Of a DNA stretch of 64,000 bases, positions 173 to 11,034 are shown in pieces (positions within the stretch are counted from its first letter, which is position 1; each line of letters opens with the position of its first letter). The stretch is from Acidobacteriota bacterium (GTDB lineage Bacteria; Acidobacteriota; Terriglobia; Terriglobales; SCQP01), in NCBI GenBank assembly GCA_021818955.1, contig JAKASR010000001.1, forward strand, positions 1-64,000. Reading direction: 5' to 3'. The notes beneath the pieces are model-generated. The model saw nothing but the letters and a program-made list of their open reading frames with translations, ran no database searches and had not been told where the DNA came from. A program made the position numbers and the translations under genes.

Positions 173-748
173 TTAACTCCGGCCGGAAGCCATGCGAGAA
201 GCGCGATTCCGCTCGTTTTCGTGCTGGATGGCAAGGGGTAGGAGAACCTTTTCTTCCAGTTCGAAATTGCGGCGCAGTTCGATTTCCAGATTTTCCAGGC
301 GGCGATACATCTCACGCCAGGAAGAGCAGGCTCCCATCGGCAATTTGAAGCCATCGGTGGTGTTCCGGATCGCGGATAGCGAGTCCGAGATTTCGGAATG
401 CTCGTGCTGGCAAAAATCGAGACAAGTGGTCAAGCTTTCCAGGGAAAATGATTCGGCATAATCGAGCGCATTATAATTGCGCTCAATGCGGGGATAGATC
501 ATATTCTCTTCTTTATCCAGGTGTATCAACAGCCGGGATTGCAGGTGCGCGGCCAGCGTCCAGATCTCATCCAGCGCGGGGAATTCCAGAGTGTGGTGCT
601 CGGCAACTTTCTCGGCCAGGGCGGTAATTTCCGGCAAATCCTGTCGTATTTGGCGGATCGAGGTATAAAGCTTTGCCAGCAAACCAGGAATGTCCGCCTG
701 GTTCCATGAAAGCGAGGCGCCGGCACGGTTGGAATATACGAGGTACAT
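173..748 (-). CDS. Hemerythrin-like di-iron protein, short RIC paralogue
   Basis: A 191-residue cytoplasmic protein made of a helical hemerythrin-like domain. Likely iron ligands are visible in HHTLEFP, HLDKEENMIYP, QHEHSE and ELEEKVLLP. It resembles the C-terminal half of the RIC protein encoded next door (869-1606), including the LP-x-x-ACSSW segment, but lacks the N-terminal Cys-Cys domain of that family. RIC proteins help restore iron-sulphur clusters after NO or oxidative damage. Without the cysteines this paralogue may sense or bind O2 or NO rather than repair. The start is supported by AGAGG upstream. The gap to the RIC gene is about 120 bases, so both may share a transcript. Confidence 0.8.
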   Translation of the reverse strand: MYLVYSNRAGASLSWNQADIPGLLAKLYTSIRQIRQDLPEITALAEKVAEHHTLEFPALDEIWTLAAHLQSRLLIHLDKEENMIYPRIERNYNALDYAESFSLESLTTCLDFCQHEHSEISDSLSAIRNTTDGFKLPMGACSSWREMYRRLENLEIELRRNFELEEKVLLPLAIQHENERNRASRMASGRS

Positions 749-868: not shown

Positions 869-1606
869 TTAATTCAGGCTGGCTTCGAGTGCCGCCGCGC
901 GCGGGAACAGGATGTTGTTTTCAAGATGAATGTGCGCGTGCAAGTCCGATTCCAGCTCGCGCAGGCGGGCATAGAGGGATTGCCAGGAGGCGCAGGCCTC
1001 GGCCGGGAGGGTATAGTCGCCGGTCAAGCGGCGAAGCGCGTCGAGCGATTCTCCCGCCTGAGCATGTTCGCGCAGCATGACACTCACTGGATTACGCAGG
1101 CTGCCAAAGGGAGGAGGTTGATAGCCGGCCTGCCCAGGCTGTAAGCCGGCCAGTTGTCCGATAAAAGGAAAAAGAACGTATTCTTCCTTTTCCATGTGCG
1201 AGTGTAGCTCGGTGGCGAGATGATCCAATTCCTGGCGCAATTCGAGTAATGCGGGATGGCGCCGGCCATGGGCATTGACGACCTTTGCCGCTAGCGCGTT
1301 GAGTTCTGGCAACCAGGTTCGCAGGCGCTGATGATGAGTGGAAACTATATGCTCGATCAGGTCGGTTAAGGATGCGGTGTCCCAAGCGGCAGCGGGTTCC
1401 GAGCCAGTAACGCTCACAAGCCGCGAGGCGGTATCCAGCTCGCGGCCCAATTGTTCGAGGGATATGCCGGCAGCCGCACAGGCGTCTTCGACTTGGGTTG
1501 CGCCCTTGCAACAGAAATCCATATGATGGCGTTCGAGCACGCCGGCGGCAAACGGCAGGCGAGCGACTAAGTCTCCTAGAGTCTGATGGCGATCAAGCGG
1601 TACCAT
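869..1606 (-). CDS. Iron-sulphur cluster repair di-iron protein (RIC/ScdA/YtfE family)
   Basis: A 245-residue protein with the two-part RIC architecture. The N-terminal ScdA_N-type domain carries the paired cysteines (MDFCCKG, near residue 32). The hemerythrin-like domain carries HHQRLR, HSHMEKEEYVLFP, REHAQAGES and HLENNILFP, which supply His/Glu ligands for a di-iron centre. The family repairs iron-sulphur clusters damaged by NO or peroxide. A strong Shine-Dalgarno (AAGGAGATTAGG) fixes the start. It is divergent from the Fe/Mn transporter at 1814, which suits a shared iron or nitrosative-stress role. Family assignment is secure; the inducing signal is inferred. Confidence 0.93.
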   Translation of the reverse strand: MVPLDRHQTLGDLVARLPFAAGVLERHHMDFCCKGATQVEDACAAAGISLEQLGRELDTASRLVSVTGSEPAAAWDTASLTDLIEHIVSTHHQRLRTWLPELNALAAKVVNAHGRRHPALLELRQELDHLATELHSHMEKEEYVLFPFIGQLAGLQPGQAGYQPPPFGSLRNPVSVMLREHAQAGESLDALRRLTGDYTLPAEACASWQSLYARLRELESDLHAHIHLENNILFPRAAALEASLN

Positions 1607-1813: not shown

Positions 1814-2536
1814 ATGAAGCTGGAACATGAACATACTTATGAAGCCATTGCAGAGCGTTTGGCGCAGCCGCGGGCAAACTATCTGCGCGACTGGCTCTAC
1901 GGCGGGCTGGACGGTGCGGTGACCACGCTGGCGGTTGTGGCGGGCGCGGTGGGGGGCGATGTGCCGCATACGGTGCTGCTGTTGCTCGGTTGCGCCAACT
2001 TACTCGCTGACGGTTTTTCGATGGCGGCGGGAAATTACCTGGGCACGAAATCGGAGCGCGACGATTACGAACGCCTGCGGGCGCGCGAGCGGCGGCATAT
2101 CGAACTGCATCCCGAAGGCGAGCGCGAGGAAGTCCGGCAGATCTTTCAGGCTAAAGGCTTCAGCGGGGCGGAGTTGGAGCATGCGGTATCAGTTATTACC
2201 GGCGACCAGGAACAATGGGTCAACCTGATGCTGACGGAAGAGTACGGCCTGGCGCGCGCCCAGCGCTCGCCGGTGCGGTCGGGGGCCAGCACTTTTGCCG
2301 CTTTCGTGCTCTGCGGCTTGGTGCCGCTGCTGCCCTATTTCCGGGATTTTGGGCACCCGCTGGTCTTGGCGGTGGGAACGACCGCCCTGATGTTTTTTGG
2401 CATCGGAGCCGGAAAAAGCCGCTGGTCGGAACAGTCCTGGTGGCGCTCGGCGCTGGAAACGCTGGCGATCGGGCTGGGGGCGGCGGTGATCGCCTTTTGG
2501 GTCGGACGTGATTTACGGCACTGGCTGGGCAGGTAA
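1814..2536 (+). CDS. VIT1/CCC1-family iron/manganese transporter
   Basis: A 240-residue inner-membrane protein with the VIT arrangement: two N-terminal membrane helices (DGAVTTLAVVAGAVGG, then ANLLADGFSMAAGNYLGTKSE), a charged helical cytoplasmic segment (about residues 80-145, rich in Glu/Arg), and three C-terminal helices. The family moves Fe2+ or Mn2+ out of the cytoplasm by proton exchange. Next to two di-iron repair proteins, it plausibly limits free iron released from damaged clusters. No strong Shine-Dalgarno precedes the ATG. Its stop codon almost abuts the convergent regulator gene ending at 2540. Confidence 0.88.
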   Translation: MKLEHEHTYEAIAERLAQPRANYLRDWLYGGLDGAVTTLAVVAGAVGGDVPHTVLLLLGCANLLADGFSMAAGNYLGTKSERDDYERLRARERRHIELHPEGEREEVRQIFQAKGFSGAELEHAVSVITGDQEQWVNLMLTEEYGLARAQRSPVRSGASTFAAFVLCGLVPLLPYFRDFGHPLVLAVGTTALMFFGIGAGKSRWSEQSWWRSALETLAIGLGAAVIAFWVGRDLRHWLGR

Positions 2537-2539
2537 AAT

Positions 2540-4009
2540 CTAAGCTTGCGGCACGGCGGCGGGATGCTCGAAGTGTTCAGCCTCGCCGAGATGGAATTTT
2601 TTCATTTTGTAGCGCAAGGCGTCGCGGCTGATATCGAGCAAGCGGGCGGCCTGTGACTGATTGCCATGGGCCTGCAGCAGGGCCTGTTCCACCATGGCGC
2701 GTTCCATCTCTTCCAGCGAGGTGCCGGGCGCGGGTATTTCCAATTTGGGCAACAGGCGTCCGGAGGGCAAGGCTTGCCATTCGGGGCTGGCAGGGGCGGC
2801 GTTGGGAAAGGCTTCGCGCGAGGTCATCATGGCGGCGCCTTCCGGCTGCAGCGGCAGGTAGGTGGGACGGATCCATTCCCCGTCTTCCAGGATCATGGCC
2901 CGCTGGATGGCATTTTTCAGTTCGCGCACATTGCCCGGCCAATCGTACGCCAGCATCAATTTGCGCGCGTCCGGGCTGAGGCCGCGGATAGTTTTGCGAA
3001 AGCGGCGATTGTAATGCGCGATGAAGAATTGGCTGAGCGGCTCAATATCTTCGCGGCGCTGGCGCAGCGGCGGAATGAAGATGGGGATCACCATGAGCCG
3101 ATAGAACAGGTCCTGGCGGAATTGTCCGGTGCGCACGGCATCCTCCAGATTGCGGTTGGAAGCGGCGACGATGCGTACGTCCACATTAATATCTTTAAGT
3201 CCGCCCACACGGCGGAAGCTTTGCTCTTCGAGCACGCGCAGCAACTTGGCTTGCAGCATCATCGGCATCTCGCCGATTTCATCCAGGAAGAAAGTGCCGC
3301 CGTCGGCGCTTTCGAGCAGGCCCTTTTTCGCGGTTTTGGCATCGGTAAATGCGCCACGCTCGTGTCCGAACAACTCGGATTCGAGTAACTGTTCGGGAAT
3401 GGCGGAGCAGTTGATGGCGACAAAGGGACGGTCGTGGCGAGAGGAATCGGCGTGGAGGACGCGGGCGAAGAGGTCTTTGCCAGTGCCGCTTTCGCCCTGC
3501 AACAGGATAGCGCTGGCTTCGCTGGCGGCGACTTTGCGCACGAAGGCATTGAGAGCCTGGAGTTTAGCCGAGGCGCCAATCACCTCGAGCGGCGCGGTCT
3601 GGCGCTGCATTTGATCGCGCAAAGTGCCGACTTCCTGGCGCAGGCGGCTGGTTTCCAGGGCATTGGAAATCGTGATCTGCAGCGCCTCGAAATCAATTGG
3701 CTTGGTCAGGTAATCGTACGCGCCCAGGCGGATAGCGGCTTTGACGTCATCAATCCGCGGATCGGCGGTAATCATGATGGCGGGGGCAAGAAAGCCTTCG
3801 TCGCGCAAGCTGCGCAATAGATCGACCCCGCTGCAATCGGGAAGGCGGACATCCAGAAGAATCAGGTCGGGGGTATTGGAGCGGACGGCGGCTTGGGCGG
3901 CGCCGCAATCGGCGGCTTCGTCCACCGCATACCCCCATTCCTCACATTTGCGGCGCAGGGGCCAGCGAAGAAGTTTTTCGTCATCGACGATCAGAATGGA
4001 CGATTTCAC
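2540..4009 (-). CDS. NtrC-family sigma-54-dependent response regulator
   Basis: A 489-residue regulator. The receiver domain occupies residues 1-120, with phospho-acceptor Asp53 (LLDVRLPD), acidic pair Asp9-Asp10 and Lys103. The AAA+ domain has Walker A GESGTGKD (172-179), the sigma-54 contact loop GAFTDA (219-224) and Walker B FLDEIGEM. The C-terminus is a Fis-type helix-turn-helix (SQAARLLDISRDALRYK). GAFTDA replaces the usual GAFTGA, a common natural variant. The start is a GTG at 4009, with GGGAGG upstream and a 4-base GTGA overlap with the kinase stop. An upstream ATG in frame would add 38 unlikely residues. It should activate -24/-12 promoters, and two candidates lie in the divergent gap beyond the kinase. 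Confidence 0.93.
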   Translation of the reverse strand: MKSSILIVDDEKLLRWPLRRKCEEWGYAVDEAADCGAAQAAVRSNTPDLILLDVRLPDCSGVDLLRSLRDEGFLAPAIMITADPRIDDVKAAIRLGAYDYLTKPIDFEALQITISNALETSRLRQEVGTLRDQMQRQTAPLEVIGASAKLQALNAFVRKVAASEASAILLQGESGTGKDLFARVLHADSSRHDRPFVAINCSAIPEQLLESELFGHERGAFTDAKTAKKGLLESADGGTFFLDEIGEMPMMLQAKLLRVLEEQSFRRVGGLKDINVDVRIVAASNRNLEDAVRTGQFRQDLFYRLMVIPIFIPPLRQRREDIEPLSQFFIAHYNRRFRKTIRGLSPDARKLMLAYDWPGNVRELKNAIQRAMILEDGEWIRPTYLPLQPEGAAMMTSREAFPNAAPASPEWQALPSGRLLPKLEIPAPGTSLEEMERAMVEQALLQAHGNQSQAARLLDISRDALRYKMKKFHLGEAEHFEHPAAVPQA

Positions 4010-5511
4010 GGCTGCGCCTCCCGCGCGTTTTCCAGCGGCAAAGTGACGATAAACCGGCTGCCCTCGCCCAGATGGCTTTCGACGCGAATCGTGCCGCCAT
4101 GGAGTTCGGCTATGCGGCGGCAAAGCGAGAGGCCGAGGCCGGTGCCGTGCTTTCCCTTGGTGGTGTAGAAGGGACGAAAGATCTTTTCCTGCTCCGCCGA
4201 AGCAATGCCGGGGCCGTCGTCGCGCACGCTGATCGTCACTTGCTGGGCGGAAGGATCCAGTTGGGTGAGAACCTCGATTTGCCCACCGGGAGGCAATGCC
4301 TCGATGGCGTTCATGACCAGGTTGAGCACCATGCGCTGGATCTGCTCGGGATCGTGCTGCAATACGGGTAGCGAGCGGGGTAAAAACGTCAGCCGCAACT
4401 GGCGCAATTGGGCGCGCGGCAAAGCGAACTGCACTGCCCGGGCGACCGCTTCATTGAGGTCGCCGGGAACCAAAGCGAGCGGACGCGGGCGGGCATAGTT
4501 AAGCAGTTCGTCCACAATGGAACGAATCCGGACCACCTGCTGCTGCACCTCCGACATCAACTCGCGTGATTCGGGCGCATTTCCAAAATTGCCGGCCAGG
4601 ACTTCTAGCACCGCGGCAATGCCGGCCAGCGGATTCTTGATCTCGTGAGCCAGGCCGGCGGCGATCTCGCCCAGGCTGGCGAGGTGCTCGGTTTGAGCCA
4701 GTTCCAACTGATGCAGCCGATGCAGGGCGGCTTCGGCGCGCTTGCGCTCGGAGACGTCGCGAATGGCGCTGGCCACCACCCATTCCCCATCGATTTCAAT
4801 GGGGCTGAGGCTGATCTCGACCGGAATCTCGACACCATCGCGGCGGCGGGCGTAGAGCTCAAGGCCGGCCCCCATCATCCGGGTGCGGGGTTGGCGATTG
4901 TATTCGCCGCGCAGCCGGCGGTGATGCTCGCGGAAACGCTCGGGCATGAAATCTTCGATCGAACGGCCGAGAATTTCCGCGCGCGGGCAGGCGAACAGTT
5001 TTTCCGATTGTTGGTTGGCCATCAGGATACGGCCGGAACCGGCACTGATCAGGATGGCGTCGGGTGCGGATTCGAGCAAAGCGCGGAAGCGGCGTTCGGC
5101 GATTTCATGCTCGCGCCCGCTGACCAGCGTGCGGGCCAGCGTGGCTTCCTGCTGTTTATAACGCGTAATGTCCACTAACCATCCTTCCGTGATGTTTTCA
5201 CCGATCTCGCAGCCGCTCATCAACACCCAAATGGAGCCGCCATTATGGGTAAGCAGCGGCAATTCCTGCGCCTGGCCGGGACTTTGGCGCACCGCTTCGT
5301 TCCATCGCGTCCAGCTTGCAGGGTCAAACAGGCTCCGCTCCACCAGTTGTTCGGGTTGGGTATATCCCAGTAGGCGGGCCGCGGCGGCACTGGCGGAGAG
5401 AACTCGCCCCTGGGGCGAGAAACGAACCCAGGCCAGGTAGGGACACAGAGCCAGCGTGTCGAGCGCGGATACCTGCACGATATTTCTAAAGCTATCATCC
5501 CAACGCCCCAA
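4006..5511 (-). CDS. PAS-domain sensor histidine kinase, partner of the NtrC-type regulator
   Basis: A 501-residue protein with no evident membrane helix, so sensing is probably cytoplasmic. Two PAS domains (about 20-120 and 140-255) precede a HisKA domain with phospho-acceptor His289 (LAHEIKNPL) and an HATPase domain. The N-box is NLVMNAIEA and the G-boxes are DDGPGIA and GTGLGLS. This is the NtrB-like layout. It overlaps the regulator by four bases, so translation is probably coupled. Cysteines at 23, 101 and 175 are possible redox ligands, but no haem or flavin motif can be proved by eye. The kinase-regulator pairing is secure from context; the signal is unknown. Confidence 0.92.
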   Translation of the reverse strand: MGRWDDSFRNIVQVSALDTLALCPYLAWVRFSPQGRVLSASAAAARLLGYTQPEQLVERSLFDPASWTRWNEAVRQSPGQAQELPLLTHNGGSIWVLMSGCEIGENITEGWLVDITRYKQQEATLARTLVSGREHEIAERRFRALLESAPDAILISAGSGRILMANQQSEKLFACPRAEILGRSIEDFMPERFREHHRRLRGEYNRQPRTRMMGAGLELYARRRDGVEIPVEISLSPIEIDGEWVVASAIRDVSERKRAEAALHRLHQLELAQTEHLASLGEIAAGLAHEIKNPLAGIAAVLEVLAGNFGNAPESRELMSEVQQQVVRIRSIVDELLNYARPRPLALVPGDLNEAVARAVQFALPRAQLRQLRLTFLPRSLPVLQHDPEQIQRMVLNLVMNAIEALPPGGQIEVLTQLDPSAQQVTISVRDDGPGIASAEQEKIFRPFYTTKGKHGTGLGLSLCRRIAELHGGTIRVESHLGEGSRFIVTLPLENAREAQP

Positions 5512-5592
5512 TGGCTACCTCTTCAGCTTGCACGCTGTCTGCCAACCGGGTGTCTCCTGTACATTGATCAATTCAGCTTGTAGATCATGGGC

Positions 5593-5608
5593 TGGCATGC
5601 AGGCTGCA
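5593..5608 (+). promoter_or_regulatory. Distal sigma-54 (-24/-12) promoter-like element
   Basis: TGGCATGCAGGCTGCA matches the TGGCACG-N4-TTGCA consensus with two mismatches, and has the required GG-N10-GC spacing (GG at 5594-5595, GC at 5606-5607). It points toward the cupredoxin gene but would give a leader of about 250 bases, so it may be secondary to the proximal element. Confidence 0.45.
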
Positions 5609-5760
5609 ACCGGCGCGGGTATCGCCTCGGATTGATCGGATAGGGGTGAATAACGCAAGGGTGGGGTATTTCACTCAAGGGGGAGGGTTGGTCCCTTGGT
5701 CGCGGCATCGAGGACGATATGCTATGCAGTCATGCAAAACCTTGAAAATACAGGTTGAAA

Positions 5761-5774
5761 TTGATCGCGATCAT
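5761..5774. promoter_or_regulatory. FNR/CRP-like or activator-binding palindrome
   Basis: TTGATCGCGATCAT differs from the FNR consensus TTGAT-N4-ATCAA at the last base only. It lies about 25 bases before the proximal -24 element. It could bind an FNR/DNR-type regulator or be a site for the neighbouring sigma-54 activator, though that is unusually close for an enhancer. Confidence 0.45.
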
Positions 5775-5799
5775 GTCATTTGAAGTTGGTGATCACAAT

Positions 5800-5815
5800 T
5801 GGCCCACTTCATGCA
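5800..5815 (+). promoter_or_regulatory. Proximal sigma-54 (-24/-12) promoter-like element
   Basis: TGGCCCACTTCATGCA has GG at 5801-5802, exactly ten bases, then GC at 5813-5814, with the flanking TGGC and TGCA of the consensus. Transcription would begin near 5826, giving a leader of about 43 bases with its own Shine-Dalgarno before the cupredoxin start. Position and spacing make it the better of the two elements. Confidence 0.55.
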
Positions 5816-5868
5816 TAAAAGAAATATGCAGGGCTTCCGCCCGGCATATTTGCAGGAGGACTCATACG

Positions 5869-6483
5869 ATGAAAGGCATACGCAGTATCGCAGTGATGAT
5901 GATGTTGGGCATGGTGGCCATGGCCGCCACAGGCATTCATGGCAAGGTCAACGGCGGCCCCCCGCCACGGGCGCTGCCGGGAGCGTTTCCACCGCCTCCG
6001 CCACGCTCGGTGGTGTGGGCGATTGGGCCGTCGCATCTGATGCCGGTTGCGGCGAAGACGTACACGATGGACCAGAAATGGACGGCGTTTCAGCCGCACG
6101 TGCTGGCGGTCCCCGTGGGCTCGACGGTGGTGTTCAAGAACAACGATACGGTGAAGCACAACGTATCCTGGAAATCCATCGGCGGCAATCGCGCGCTGGC
6201 GAAAAACTTGGGCAATGCGTCGCCGGGGCAATCGCTAAACTTTCGCTTCACGCATCCCGGCGTGATCCATCTGCGCTGCACGCTGCATCCCGATATGAGC
6301 GCTTATATCGTAGTGGTGCCGACGGCGTATTTCACAACGACCAAGCGCTCGGGCAACTATAATCTCAAGCTGCCGGCCGGCCATTATCGCGTGGTCGCTT
6401 GGCATGAAGGCCGCCACGAGCAGTCGCGCACAGTGACGGTGGGCGAGGGTTCTTCCACGGTCAATTTCAATTTATCGAAATAA
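5869..6483 (+). CDS. Secreted cupredoxin (plastocyanin-like) with C-terminal beta domain
   Basis: A 204-residue exported protein. A signal peptide (about 1-25) and Pro-rich spacer precede a cupredoxin fold. The type-1 copper ligands are all present: His97 (KHN), Cys137, His140 and Met143 in the C-x2-H-x2-M pattern. Residues 160-204 form a second small beta domain like carboxypeptidase regulatory modules. The start is set by GGAGGA eight bases upstream; an earlier in-frame ATG at 5755 would bury the signal peptide. The protein probably shuttles electrons or holds copper in the periplasm or on the surface. It is followed after 67 bases by the barrel cytochrome, whose leader carries the same AGGAGGACTCAT. 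Confidence 0.85.
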   Translation: MKGIRSIAVMMMLGMVAMAATGIHGKVNGGPPPRALPGAFPPPPPRSVVWAIGPSHLMPVAAKTYTMDQKWTAFQPHVLAVPVGSTVVFKNNDTVKHNVSWKSIGGNRALAKNLGNASPGQSLNFRFTHPGVIHLRCTLHPDMSAYIVVVPTAYFTTTKRSGNYNLKLPAGHYRVVAWHEGRHEQSRTVTVGEGSSTVNFNLSK

Positions 6484-6499
6484 ACTAGAACTATACGGC

Positions 6500-6525
6500 C
6501 TGGACGCCGCCGGCGCGGCGTCCAG
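6500..6525 (+). other. Perfect intergenic stem-loop between cupredoxin and cytochrome
   Basis: CTGGACGCCGC (6500-6510), loop CGGC, then the exact reverse complement (6515-6525). The 11 bp GC-rich stem has no T-run, so it is more likely an mRNA stability or processing hairpin that sets different protein amounts than a full terminator. Confidence 0.55.
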
Positions 6526-6550
6526 GAAGCTGTACACATCAGGAGGACTC

Positions 6551-7900
6551 ATGACGACCTTGCGAAAAGTAGGGCAGTGGATGTGTATGCCGCTGCTGGT
6601 CATGGCGGCGGCAGGCGCGGCTTGGGGCGTCCCCAGCTTTGCCCGGCAAACCGGGTTGCCGTGCAGCCGGTGCCATATCACCTTTCCGGAATTGACCGCC
6701 TTCGGACGCCAATTCAAACTCAATGGCTACACGCTGAGTGGAAAAAACACACCCAAAATCTATAAGCCCGGCAGCAAAAATGAGGCTGGGCTGTGGTTGA
6801 ACGAAAATCTGCCGCTTTCGGCGATGTTTCAGATTTCGGATACGCTGACGCGCAAGGCCCAGCCGGGTACGCAAAACGGCAATATCGAATTTCCACAGCA
6901 GCTAAGCCTTTTTCTGGCCGGCGAGCTGGCGACTCACATGGGCAGCTTCATTCAGGTCACCTATAACACCCAGGGCGACCATTTTTCCATGGACAATACC
7001 GATATTCGCTACGCCAATCTCCGCTATTTCGGCAGCAAGCCGCTGGTGTACGGACTGGATTTGAACAACAATCCGACCGTCGAAGATTTATGGAACGATA
7101 CGCCGGCCTGGGGCTTTCCCTGGGCGGGGCCCGACAGTTCGCCGTCGCCTATGGCCAGCACCCTGATTGACGGCGGGTTGGCGCAGGATGTGGGCGGCGT
7201 GGGCGCCTATGCGATGTACAACAACAGTTTCTACGGCGACTTTACGCTTTACCGGTCCATGCATATCGGCGGCCCGCAGCCGCCCGATGGCAAGGGATTT
7301 GGCATCAACATCTCTGGCGTGGCGCCCTACTGGCGCGGCGCCTATCAGACCACCTGGGGAAGCGGCCTGAATTATCTCGAGGTTGGAACCTATGGGATGC
7401 ACGTCAACAGCTTCCCCAATACCATCGGCGGAGCGGAGAATCGCTACACCGACGCCGCCGGCGATGCCCAGTACGAACGCCATCTGGGAAAAGATACCCT
7501 GACCCTGCACACTACTTATATCCATGAGAGCTCGAATTTATTCGGCACGCTGGCGGCGCGGGGCGCGAGCTTTGCTGCCCACAAGCTGCACACGTTCAAG
7601 CTCGATGGGCTGTACCACCTCGGCAATATGTACGCCTTTGGCGGCGGCGGCTTCTCCACCAGCGGCACCGCCGATGCTACCCTCTTCGCTTCCGGCGCGT
7701 TGAACGGCAGCAATAACGGCAGCCCGGATAGCAACGGCTACATTCTCGAAGCCAGCTACTGGCCGGTGCAGAATATCTCGCTCCAGCTTTATTACCTGGG
7801 CTTTACCAAGTTCAATGGCGCCTCCACCAATTATGATGGCGCGGGTCGCAATGCCAGCGACAACAACACGCTTTATATAAACCTGTGGCTGATGTTTTAA
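6551..7900 (+). CDS. Outer-membrane barrel protein with an N-terminal haem c site
   Basis: A 449-residue exported protein. A signal peptide (about 1-26) is followed by one haem c motif, Cys38-Ser-Arg-Cys41-His42, in the context FARQTGLPCSRCHITFPELTAFGR. That pattern is shared by a family of monohaem barrel proteins often annotated as cytochrome c. The rest (about 60-449) has alternating aromatic/Gly-rich beta strands and ends in Phe, as outer-membrane barrels do. It could carry electrons across or onto the outer membrane with the cupredoxin as partner. AGGAGGA precedes the ATG. The fold is inferred from composition and the C-terminal Phe. Confidence 0.8.
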   Translation: MTTLRKVGQWMCMPLLVMAAAGAAWGVPSFARQTGLPCSRCHITFPELTAFGRQFKLNGYTLSGKNTPKIYKPGSKNEAGLWLNENLPLSAMFQISDTLTRKAQPGTQNGNIEFPQQLSLFLAGELATHMGSFIQVTYNTQGDHFSMDNTDIRYANLRYFGSKPLVYGLDLNNNPTVEDLWNDTPAWGFPWAGPDSSPSPMASTLIDGGLAQDVGGVGAYAMYNNSFYGDFTLYRSMHIGGPQPPDGKGFGINISGVAPYWRGAYQTTWGSGLNYLEVGTYGMHVNSFPNTIGGAENRYTDAAGDAQYERHLGKDTLTLHTTYIHESSNLFGTLAARGASFAAHKLHTFKLDGLYHLGNMYAFGGGGFSTSGTADATLFASGALNGSNNGSPDSNGYILEASYWPVQNISLQLYYLGFTKFNGASTNYDGAGRNASDNNTLYINLWLMF

Positions 7901-7940: not shown

Positions 7941-7984
7941 GCCGGCGGACGCGCTACGCTGACGCGCCCGCCGGCACCGTTTTA
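7941..7984. terminator. Terminator between cytochrome and ADOP permease genes
   Basis: Arms GCCGGCGGACGCG (7941-7953) and CGCGCCCGCCGGC (7963-7975) pair nearly perfectly around a 9-base loop. They are followed by a TTTTA stretch at 7980-7984. It ends the rightward cupredoxin-cytochrome operon and lies at the end of the convergent permease gene. Confidence 0.7.
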
Positions 7985-10660
7985 TTCCGCGTGCAACAGC
8001 CGGGCGGGATCCAGCCGGCCGGCCTGGCGGGCAGGCCAGGCGCCGGCGGCCAGCGCGATCACGCTCAGCCCCAGGGCGACGGCGAGATAGATAGAAGGAT
8101 TCATGGGGCTGACCTGATAGAGCAGGCTGCTAAGGGAGCGGGCCAGCAGCGCCGCCAGCAACAGGCCGGAGGTGAGCCCGAAGCCGAGCAGGCGCAGGGT
8201 GTGGCGTAACACCAGGCGGCGGATAGCATCGGCATCGGCGCCGAGCGCCATGCGGATGGCGATCTCGTGGCGGCGCAGCACGACCGAGGCGGAGAGCACG
8301 CCATAGAGTCCCAGCGCGGCCAGCAGCGCCGCGGCGAGGCCATATGCTCCGGCCAGTTGCGCCTGAAAACGCCGGGTGTGGGTAGCGGCGCTGACCAGAT
8401 GGGAAAGCGCCGCGGCGGGGGGTAAGGGCTCGTTGGAATCCAGGCTCCAGATAAGCGGTGGCAGGCTGCCGGCGAGTCGGCGCCAATTGCCCGCGGTGCG
8501 CACCACCAGGGAATAATCGATGCCGGGCCAATCCTGCATAGGTTGGTAGATCATCAGCGGCGCCGGTTTTTCCGGATCGGCGCGCACGTCGGCGGCCACG
8601 CCCACCACCCGCAGCCAGACATGTTGCTCGCCGCTTTCCATGATTTTCATGCCGATCGGATTGCGCCCGCCGAGCACCTGGCGAACCACGTTTTCCGAGA
8701 TGATGGCGACATCGGCGCGATCCGGCGGCAAAGTCGTGCCGGCGACGAGCGGAATGCCGGCGGCGCGAAAATAATCGGGGCTGATGAAGCGGAAGTTGCC
8801 CTCATGCCGCGGTCGCGCCGGCAGGCCGAAAAATTGAATGCCGGAGGTCCAGGTTTGGCCTTCCAGCGGCAATTGGCTGATCCAGCCGGCGGCGCGGACG
8901 TCGCCCAGGCGGCGCACGCGGTCGAGCACCTGGCGAAAAAATTGCAGCCGCTGCGCGTCCGCTTGGGCCAGGCGGCCATGGCTGAGCGGGGCCACGACTT
9001 TTAGGGTGAGCACGCGGTGGGTGTCGAGGGCGCGGTTGACGCGCAAGACCTGGCGGAGGCTGGCGGCGAGCAGCAGCGCGGTGGTGAGCAGCAGGGCCGA
9101 AAGCGCGATTTCGGTGCCGCTCAGCCATTCGCGCAGGTGCAGCGAATGGCGGTGCGAGGCAATCGTGGACTGGCTGACCTGCAAGCTTTCAGGCGCCGCC
9201 TGGCGCAGCAGGTGCAAGGTGGGTGGCAGGATGAAGAGCGCGCCGGCCAGCAGCGTGACCACCCCGGCAAAAGCCCAGCCGGCCGGAGTCAAATGCAGCC
9301 CGCCGAGACGCGGCAGGCCGATGGCGGTATCGGCGGCCAACAGGCGCAGGCCGGCCCAGGCCAGCAGCAGGCCCAGCGCGAAGCCGGCGGCCAGCAGCCA
9401 GACCATTTCGCTTAAAAGCTGGCGCAGCAGCCGGCCGCGTCCGGCGCCCACCGCGCTGCGCACCGCCATCTCGTGCAAGCGTCCGCTGTTGCGGGCAAGC
9501 AGCAGGTTGGCCAGATTGAGGGCGATCAGTAGCAGCAGCAGCCCGGCGCCGATGGCGATAAGCAATAAGCCGGAACGATATGGCGCAGTCAGAACGCGCT
9601 GCAAAGGCGTGAGGAACGTTTGCGTGTGAATTTTGGATTCGTGCAAGCTGGCGAGAATACGCCGATTGATCAGGTCGAGCTGGCGCCCCGCCGCAACCGG
9701 AGATATGCCCGGGCGCAGCCGGCCAAGCGCGATGAAATTCTGATCGCAGATACAGAGGTGCGTTTCCCAACCGGCCAAACCGAGCGGGAAAAACATTTGA
9801 ATGGGCGGCGTTGCTTGCGAGCTGCCGAACTGCCCGGCCAGCCGGCCCAGGCGGGGCAGATAGAAGCCGCGCGGCAAAACGCCAACCACGGTGTACAGCG
9901 TTCCATTTAAAACGAGCCGGGCGCCGAGTGATGCGGCTGAGGCGGAGAACAGCCGCCGCCAGAGCGGCCAGGCAAGGATGACCTCGTGATCCTGTCCCTG
10001 CAATTCCTCGGCCGGAGTAAAGGCGCGGCCCAGCCGCAAGGGCGCACCTAGGGTGCGAAAGAAGTTGGCGGAAACGCGGGCGGCGGGAATGATCTGCGCT
10101 CGCCCGCGTCCGGTGAGAATCAGGCCGCGGGCTTCCAGCAGGCTCATGTGCTGGAAGTGCGTGGCCTGCCGTTGCCAGATTTGAAACATGCCGGCATTGA
10201 CCAGGCTGGAGACGCCTTGCCGGGAGTCCGTGCGATAACGCAGGGAAATCGCCACCAGGCGGCTCGCGTGGGGATAAGGCAGCGGTTGCCAGAGCTCGCG
10301 TTGAATCAGCGAAAAGAGGATGGTGGCGGCGCCGAGGCCGAGCGCCAGCGTCACTAGCGCTACCACGGCGAAAGCGGGATTACGGCGCAGCAGGCGCCGG
10401 CTCTGGCGCAGGTCGCGCAGGAAATCGCCGCCCCAAAGCCTGCGCCGCTGCTCGCGGCGGCATTCGCGCAGCTGCTCGCTCCCGCCCAACTTCACCCGCG
10501 CCCGGCGCCCGGCTTCTTCTGGCGGCAGGCCCTGGCGGCGGTATTCCTCGATCAGCAGCGCGAGATGAGCTTCCAGTTCTTCGTCGAATTCACGTTCCCA
10601 GCGGCGCGGGTGCAGCCGGGCAATCAGTCGTGAAAGGAATTGGCGCGGGGATTCGAGCAT
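7982..10660 (-). CDS. ADOP permease (acidobacterial duplicated MacB/FtsX-type permease)
   Basis: An 892-residue inner-membrane protein. The N-terminal cytoplasmic prefix (about 1-80, WEREFDEELEAHLALLIEEYRRQGL) is the PadR-linked permease prefix. A membrane helix and a large periplasmic MacB-like domain follow. Two FtsX domains of several helices each (about 370-470 and 770-892) complete the duplicated layout. No ATPase is encoded nearby, as is typical of these orphan permeases, which are abundant in Acidobacteriota. The substrate is unknown; relatives handle peptides, lipids or drugs. The PadR gene lies 23 bases upstream and is co-directional, so it very probably controls this gene. Confidence 0.93.
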   Translation of the reverse strand: MLESPRQFLSRLIARLHPRRWEREFDEELEAHLALLIEEYRRQGLPPEEAGRRARVKLGGSEQLRECRREQRRRLWGGDFLRDLRQSRRLLRRNPAFAVVALVTLALGLGAATILFSLIQRELWQPLPYPHASRLVAISLRYRTDSRQGVSSLVNAGMFQIWQRQATHFQHMSLLEARGLILTGRGRAQIIPAARVSANFFRTLGAPLRLGRAFTPAEELQGQDHEVILAWPLWRRLFSASAASLGARLVLNGTLYTVVGVLPRGFYLPRLGRLAGQFGSSQATPPIQMFFPLGLAGWETHLCICDQNFIALGRLRPGISPVAAGRQLDLINRRILASLHESKIHTQTFLTPLQRVLTAPYRSGLLLIAIGAGLLLLLIALNLANLLLARNSGRLHEMAVRSAVGAGRGRLLRQLLSEMVWLLAAGFALGLLLAWAGLRLLAADTAIGLPRLGGLHLTPAGWAFAGVVTLLAGALFILPPTLHLLRQAAPESLQVSQSTIASHRHSLHLREWLSGTEIALSALLLTTALLLAASLRQVLRVNRALDTHRVLTLKVVAPLSHGRLAQADAQRLQFFRQVLDRVRRLGDVRAAGWISQLPLEGQTWTSGIQFFGLPARPRHEGNFRFISPDYFRAAGIPLVAGTTLPPDRADVAIISENVVRQVLGGRNPIGMKIMESGEQHVWLRVVGVAADVRADPEKPAPLMIYQPMQDWPGIDYSLVVRTAGNWRRLAGSLPPLIWSLDSNEPLPPAAALSHLVSAATHTRRFQAQLAGAYGLAAALLAALGLYGVLSASVVLRRHEIAIRMALGADADAIRRLVLRHTLRLLGFGLTSGLLLAALLARSLSSLLYQVSPMNPSIYLAVALGLSVIALAAGAWPARQAGRLDPARLLHAE

Positions 10661-10683
10661 GACTGCTCCGCAATCAAGAGCGG

Positions 10684-11034
10684 TTAGTTTTCAGGAGCGA
10701 GTTTCAAGAAGCGTTCCATCACCGCCGCAAGGCGGTTCCACACCGCGGTTTCGCGCTCGATCCGCTTGCGTCCGCGGGCGGTGAGCACGTAGTATTTCGC
10801 CCGCCTGCCGTTTTCGGATTTACCCCAGGCGGCGGAGATCAGCCCGCGCTGCTGCAGGCGTAGCAATGCGGCATAAATGGTGCCCTGGTTGAGCAATATA
10901 CGATCGCCGCTGGTCTGCTCGATGCGCCGCGCCAGTCCGTAGCCGTGCTGTGGCCCCAGCGCCAGCAGGGTGCGCAGCACCATCAAATCGAGCGTGCCTT
11001 GCAGCAGATCGAGCCGGGTAGTGTCTTCGAGCAT
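10684..11034 (-). CDS. PadR-family transcriptional regulator of the ADOP permease
   Basis: A 116-residue winged-helix repressor. It has the family pattern LLQGTLDLMVLRTLLALGPQ, GYGLARRIE, LNQGTIYAALLRLQQRGLI and RRAKYYVLTARG. The start at 11034 gives the usual PadR N-terminus and has AGGAA upstream; longer in-frame readings add Ser/Arg-rich sequence with no similarity to the family. It is transcribed with the permease and presumably responds to the ligand that the permease handles. It is divergent from the hydrolase gene at 11171. Confidence 0.92.
   Translation of the reverse strand: MLEDTTRLDLLQGTLDLMVLRTLLALGPQHGYGLARRIEQTSGDRILLNQGTIYAALLRLQQRGLISAAWGKSENGRRAKYYVLTARGRKRIERETAVWNRLAAVMERFLKLAPEN

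Follow-up and report, generated by a model that had tools for sequence, protein, structure and literature searches.

The 64,000-nucleotide stretch of DNA analysed here (the window), from an uncultured acidobacterium, carries genes for a histidine kinase and an NtrC-type response regulator next to a cupredoxin gene and a gene for a Cyc2-type fused cytochrome-porin. Our analysis argues that the kinase and the regulator likely form a respiratory or redox two-component system that drives the cupredoxin-Cyc2 operon by sigma-54. The computed part of this case comprises a conserved promoter element, rpoN in the genome, a complete sigma-54 activator, the linkage of the genes and the membership of the cytochrome in the Cyc2 family. 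The features are listed in Table 1.

Table 1. Features of the window around the kinase-cupredoxin intergenic region
Feature	Position	Strand	Basis or remark
Second hemerythrin-domain protein	173-748	-	Pfam Hemerythrin
RIC/ScdA-type Fe-S cluster repair di-iron protein	869-1606	-	TIGR03652, above cut-off
VIT1-family Fe/Mn transporter	1814-2536	+	Pfam VIT1
NtrC-type response regulator: receiver, Sigma54_activat AAA+ with GAFTDA, Fis-type HTH	2540-4042	-	Pfam
Histidine kinase, two PAS domains	4006-5511	-	Pfam, PDB search, alignment of 10 orthologues
Candidate sigma-54 element TGGCAGACAGCGTGCA, facing the kinase gene	5544-5529	-	Counterparts in L032 and L033
Distal GG-N10-GC match TGGCATGCAGGCTGCA	5593-5608	+	Without counterpart in L032, same genus
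Candidate enhancer (UAS) for the NtrC-type regulator	5643-5677	.	Between two divergent promoters
FNR-like box TTGATCGCGATCAT	5761-5774		Upstream of the cupredoxin gene; not kept in L032
Proximal sigma-54 -24/-12 element TGGCCCACTTCATGCA	5800-5815	+	Conserved in 9/9 orthologous loci
Secreted type-1 blue copper protein (cupredoxin) with C-terminal CarboxypepD_reg-like domain	5869-6483	+	Pfam
Cyc2-family fused monoheme cytochrome-porin, 449 aa	6551-7900	+	Motif, AlphaFold model, Foldseek

A conserved -24/-12 element upstream of the cupredoxin gene

The initial annotation had pointed to two elements with GG-N10-GC spacing directed at the cupredoxin gene; both are present on the plus strand, and the proximal one is conserved, whereas the distal one is lost in L032. 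Nothing similar to the distal match (2 mismatches to TGGCACN5TTGCW) aligned in this nearest relative of the window locus, and a second promoter at this place was therefore rejected; the match is probably due to chance.

Homologous loci were gathered by way of the cytochrome and cupredoxin proteins, which gave nine loci with a cupredoxin-cytochrome operon from five genera of one family. The proximal element shows the GG-N10-GC spacing and has 2 mismatches to TGGCACN5TTGCW, and TGGC-N8-TGC[AT] is found in 9/9 of the orthologous loci, where it starts 51-70 nt ahead of the cupredoxin gene. Its versions are TGGCCCACTTCATGCA in the window locus (W in comparisons), TGGCAAAATTCATGCA in L032, TGGCATGCAATTTGCA in L033, TGGCTACGTGCGTGCT in L034, TGGCATGATGCGTGCA in L035, TGGCCAACCGCGTGCA in L036, TGGCCACACGCTTGCT in L037, TGGCCACATGCTTGCT in L038 and TGGCCACCCGCTTGCT in L083; the last three loci belong to one genus, so that the nine are only partly independent. 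In the alignment of W with L032, the proximal element and the Shine-Dalgarno region stood out as conserved islands. The control set consisted of 223 genes whose non-coding upstream DNA measured 150 nt or more: TGGCN8TGCW lay within 110 nt upstream in 13 of them (about 6%), several of these 13 being cupredoxin genes themselves. When each upstream region was shuffled by dinucleotides, an element within 110 nt arose in 0.2-1.4% of trials. Taken alone, the motif is weak, with 309 three-mismatch matches in the window against 324 expected from shuffles and 875 exact TGGCN8TGCW sites genome-wide.

Strong -24/-12 sites are enriched in the genome (51 near-consensus sites compared to 19 for the reversed pattern), and rpoN, which the initial annotation had proposed to look for along with conservation of the proximal element, is present in the window's own genome, G000 (G000:C11:17594-18070; Sigma54_DBD, 193.7 bits). 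Upstream of the cupredoxin gene the plus strand showed no sigma-70-like site, and between the cupredoxin and Cyc2-type genes it showed no terminator. The conservation across five genera, combined with the presence of rpoN, supports a sigma-54 promoter on the cupredoxin gene, and the proximal element is very likely to be that promoter. The start predicted from it, 12 nt after the -12 C, falls at about 5826, in agreement with the earlier estimate.

The upstream regions of the other Cyc2-like homologous loci showed no consistent sigma-54 element, indicating a promoter peculiar to the cupredoxin-first operon of the window's family; sigma-54 control of Cyc2-like genes in general was rejected for the same reason. 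The order-level cupredoxins encoded upstream of Cyc2-like genes in L057, L062 and L068 are likewise without the element.

A minus-strand element and a candidate enhancer between the divergent genes

The minus-strand element facing the kinase gene, absent from the initial annotation, has counterparts at the matching place, TGGCAGAGGGCGTGCA in L032 and TGGCACGCTCCGTGCA in L033 (11/12 consensus). From this element the kinase leader would measure about 7 nt with the TTG start at 5511 and about 40 nt with the GTG start at 5478. The chances that it mediates autoregulation of the kinase are evenly balanced.

Within the candidate enhancer, the half-site GGGTGAAT (5644-5651) faces an inverted TTTCACTC (5669-5676). 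Its segment TTTCACTCA is conserved in L032 and L035. In the genus of the window the dyad is degenerate; clearer versions occur in relatives, among them GGGTGAAATCACCC (L033) and a pair of dyads in L037. The pattern GGGTGAWW occurs in 7/9 cupredoxin promoters and 5/10 resB promoters. Across loci it was found at 13 of the 21 genes with a sigma-54 element compared to 12 of the 217 without one (p = 8e-10), and the co-occurrence calculated without the cupredoxin genes gave p of about 1e-5. Half-site and sigma-54 element stand together at the cupredoxin, HK (histidine kinase) and Usp-RIC-HK-RR-nar promoters. These half-sites are the best candidate for the putative binding site of the regulator, and we lean slightly towards 5643-5677 being an enhancer common to both divergent promoters. 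In the own genome, GGGTGA-N2-TCACCC had 3 exact matches and 10 with one mismatch; since a sigma-54 site was clearly placed at none of them, the use of perfect dyads as a list of the own-genome regulon was dropped.

The operon encodes a blue copper protein and a Cyc2-type cytochrome-porin

The type-1 His-Cys-His-Met ligand set of the cupredoxin is complete, with His97, Cys137, His140 and Met143 invariant in the nine sequences, and its relatives in the PDB include amicyanin, plastocyanin and nitrite reductase. In the initial annotation the unit was called a cupredoxin-cytochrome operon; the word cytochrome could be sharpened to a Cyc2-type fused cytochrome-porin by the motif, a 16-strand model and the porin fold. 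No Pfam or NCBIfam model matched the 449-aa protein, and no solved structure in the PDB is related to it in sequence. It displays the motif PSFARQT-GLP-CSRCH-ITF-PEL, and in motifs and length it falls within the published definition of Cyc2, namely PXFAR[QK][TY] upstream of CXXCH, PXL downstream, at least 365 aa and a fused 16-strand porin (PMC8406198). Residues R32, Q33, T34, C38, C41, H42, P46 and L48 are invariant or nearly so in 35 homologues. The AlphaFold model (pLDDT 76, pTM 0.75) has 16 strands in residues 89-448, together with a signal helix and a small N-terminal domain, and its Foldseek matches included OprP, OprO and OmpC/OmpF-type porins. Motif and predicted barrel thus place the protein in the Cyc2 family with high confidence.

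Cyc2-like proteins 40-46% identical, which are represented among these 35 homologues, were found on contigs labelled Proteobacteria (L088, L090-L096); the contigs apparently come from mine-drainage metagenomes. Acidobacteria homologues have been noted near Leptospirillum Cyt572 (PMC10654088), and the function of Cluster 3 Cyc2 has been called uncertain (PMC8406198). The own genome has a second Cyc2-like gene, the first in an alternative complex III cluster with c7 cytochrome, MoCo-like, Fer4, NrfD and ActD genes (L130, G000:C5, 6745-13586), and in G009 the cupredoxin-Cyc2 operon lies divergent from such a cluster. Both links fit electron exchange with the respiratory chain. Behind the operon, on the other strand, the window encodes a MacB/FtsX-type duplicated permease (892 aa) and a PadR regulator (7982-11034).

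The kinase-regulator pair and its genomic neighbours

The regulator comprises the Pfam domains receiver, Sigma54_activat, AAA lid and HTH_8. The GAFTDA loop reported by the initial annotation was confirmed and is invariant in 13 orthologues (57-88% over the alignment), in which the ATPase motifs and the HTH are invariant or nearly so; the recognition helix is nearly identical in the window's family and a sister family. The kinase shows no evident membrane segment. The PDB entries closest to its second PAS domain (PAS2) are those of FixL, DosP and an unnamed multi-sensor kinase (10jx). FixL has a heme-ligand His and a distal Arg; His197 of the window kinase is in register with the former and invariant in 10 orthologues, and the latter, on the GIGR strand, is not conserved, the window kinase having GAGL. 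Since the distal Arg is missing, we do not file the kinase as FixL and say only that it may work like it. The likeness of PAS2 to FixL and DosP, with the invariant His197, makes a heme-based sensor of O2 or NO possible, an analogy that we put forward tentatively.

The orthologous kinase-regulator (HK-RR) pair adjoins the operon in 6/9 genomes and in two gene orders, being divergent from it in the window, L032 and L033 and downstream of it in L037, L038 and L082. In G003, G009 and G012 the pair is not adjacent to the operon and the element is kept. An orthologue of the regulator was present in 9/9 genomes with the cupredoxin compared to 2/5 without it. One of the genomes, G005, has the pair and lacks both cupredoxin and cytochrome, indicating that the pair has other targets.

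Elsewhere, the pair is part of a Usp-RIC-HK-RR-cytochrome c-NarG-NarH run, all of one strand and preceded by a sigma-54 element and a GGGTGAWW half-site (L134, 2518-13734); it also accompanies cytochrome bd and RIC in L136, Crp/Fnr-type and multiheme cytochrome genes in L137 and L138, and Usp in L135 and L139. The RIC/ScdA-type protein is a recurrent neighbour of the two-component system, and the VIT1-family transporter also adjoins the pair in L032 and L033. In the sister family, a resB-ccsA-HK-RR block ends with the regulator orthologue and contains a different, HAMP-type kinase, and a sigma-54 element lies 38-51 nt before resB in seven loci (L190, L191, L192, L194, L197, L199 and L203), which suggests that cytochrome c maturation could be under sigma-54 control in that family. 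Sigma-54 elements precede other RR-linked operons as well, namely Usp-RIC-HK-RR-narGH, HK and resB-ccsA. The common theme of the pair's neighbours is respiration, cytochrome c maturation and nitrosative or redox stress. An orphan second copy of the cupredoxin gene, 77% identical and without a Cyc2-like gene, was seen in L129 (G001:C54, about 6300-6953), near a PAS-PAS-GAF sigma-54 activator.

The linkage in 6/9 genomes, the regulator orthologue in all nine cupredoxin genomes and the co-occurrence of half-site and sigma-54 element give indirect support to the earlier proposal that the two-component system controls the operon, and we consider activation by the adjacent pair probable.

Alternative explanations

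It is very unlikely that the -24/-12 likeness is coincidental and that transcription of the operon depends on sigma-70 or on a Crp/FNR-type regulator. Sites matching the motif are frequent, an FNR-like box is present and the Acidithiobacillus rus/cyc2 operon is sigma-70 dependent (PMC5506826), but the element is kept in all nine loci at a near-fixed distance, no sigma-70-like site was found upstream and the FNR-like box is lost in L032. A true sigma-54 promoter might also be served by another NtrC-family activator, the pair being linked by chance or controlling only itself and the Fe-S repair genes. The genome holds at least 13 sigma-54 activator matches resembling the regulator, so that another of them could act on the operon; the genomes that keep the element with the pair elsewhere and the PAS-GAF sigma-54 activator adjoining the second cupredoxin copy in G001 point in the same direction. 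Recurrent adjacency in two gene orders, the regulator orthologue in every cupredoxin genome and a half-site common to the pair's own promoters and the operon argue against this explanation, which we regard as unlikely.

The kinase and the regulator score well against AtoSC/ZraSR models, and VIT1 transporter and Usp/Hsp20 genes lie nearby in the window or in related loci, as would be expected if the system answered to metals (Cu, Fe or Zn) or to envelope stress like ZraSR, with the cupredoxin and the Cyc2-like protein employed in metal handling rather than respiration. However, the kinase is soluble with PAS domains, while ZraS is a membrane-bound kinase, and the linked genes are narGH, cytochrome bd, RIC, resB-ccsA and those of multiheme cytochromes; a metal or envelope-stress response is accordingly quite unlikely.

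Proposed mechanism and implications

Under the reading that we prefer, sigma-54 control of the operon by the adjacent pair, 5512-5868 would be a divergent regulatory region. The soluble kinase would perceive, perhaps via its FixL-like PAS, a signal related to respiration or redox state, for which low O2 or NO is the likeliest candidate, and would phosphorylate the NtrC-type regulator. The latter could then assemble around 5643-5677 on half-sites of the GGGTGAWW type, some 100-150 bp away from each of the two -24/-12 elements, and open the sigma-54 RNA polymerase at 5800-5815, so that the cupredoxin and Cyc2-type cytochrome-porin genes would be transcribed as one operon from about 5826; the same enhancer would probably serve the kinase-regulator operon too. 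The gene products may form an electron path between outer membrane and periplasm. By family resemblance, electrons would be taken in from Fe(II) or another outside donor, and we rate such inward flow through the Cyc2-type protein a little below even. Of these steps, we infer enhancer binding, the signal, autoregulation and the direction of electron flow.

A wider reading, which we hold to be doubtful, is that a heme-PAS, low-O2/NO-responsive NtrC-type system in Terriglobia-type Acidobacteria might run a sigma-54 regulon of envelope electron transfer, comprising Cyc2-cupredoxin, narGH, cytochrome bd, cytochrome c maturation and Fe-S repair, with the Cyc2 operon induced by oxygen limitation. If this is true, acidobacteria that are not known as iron oxidisers could, for example, oxidise Fe(II) under microaerobic conditions or in a way linked to nitrate. 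Cytochrome-porins of the Cyc2 type are employed by iron-oxidising bacteria, and Cyc2 serves as the chief genetic marker of Fe(II) oxidation by microbes, but its function is uncertain for homologues outside the tested clusters. Here a Cyc2-type protein is linked to a respiratory regulator, and the conserved promoter, the activator and the co-regulated genes give a testable statement of when Cyc2-type genes are used; the pairing of GGGTGAWW with sigma-54 elements can be used to look for the remaining regulon members in uncultured genomes.

Comparison with known systems

The regulator resembles the NtrC/AtoC/ZraR-type regulators in its receiver, AAA+ domain with GAFTDA and Fis HTH (matches of about 400 bits), but it lies below the cut-offs of every named subfamily among the matches listed, and its target genes differ. 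PAS2 aligns with the FixL-type heme PAS kinases (E about 1e-14) and has a His at the heme-ligand place; unlike FixL, the window kinase has an NtrC-type partner instead of FixJ, and GAGL in place of GIGR. The Cyc2-type protein shares PXFAR[QK][TY], CXXCH, PXL, the fused 16-strand porin and a length of >365 aa with the family described by Keffer et al. 2021 (PMC8406198), and differs in having G, not A, first in the longer AXPXFAR motif.

The rus operon of A. ferrooxidans (cyc2-cyc1-cox-rus) likewise encodes a Cyc2-type outer-membrane cytochrome-porin with a cupredoxin, rusticyanin. Its promoters are sigma-70 dependent and RegBA-controlled (PMC5506826), whereas in the window the predicted promoter is of the sigma-54 type and lies next to an NtrC-type pair, and the unit lacks cyc1 and cox. 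The closest precedents for such regulation are the tet and cyd operons of the same organism, respiratory genes with sigma-54 promoters and a neighbouring NtrC-type regulator (PMC5506826), although what is controlled there is tet and cyd rather than a gene for a Cyc2-type protein. A full-text literature search on cyc2, sigma-54 and iron oxidation did not find sigma-54/NtrC-type wiring of Cyc2-type genes; the three were found together only in PMC5506826, where the Acidithiobacillus cyc2 operon is sigma-70. Given that the tet and cyd precedents are sigma-54 and the cyc2-bearing rus operon is sigma-70, the parts of the system described here are of known kinds, and what is new relative to the literature searched is their wiring.
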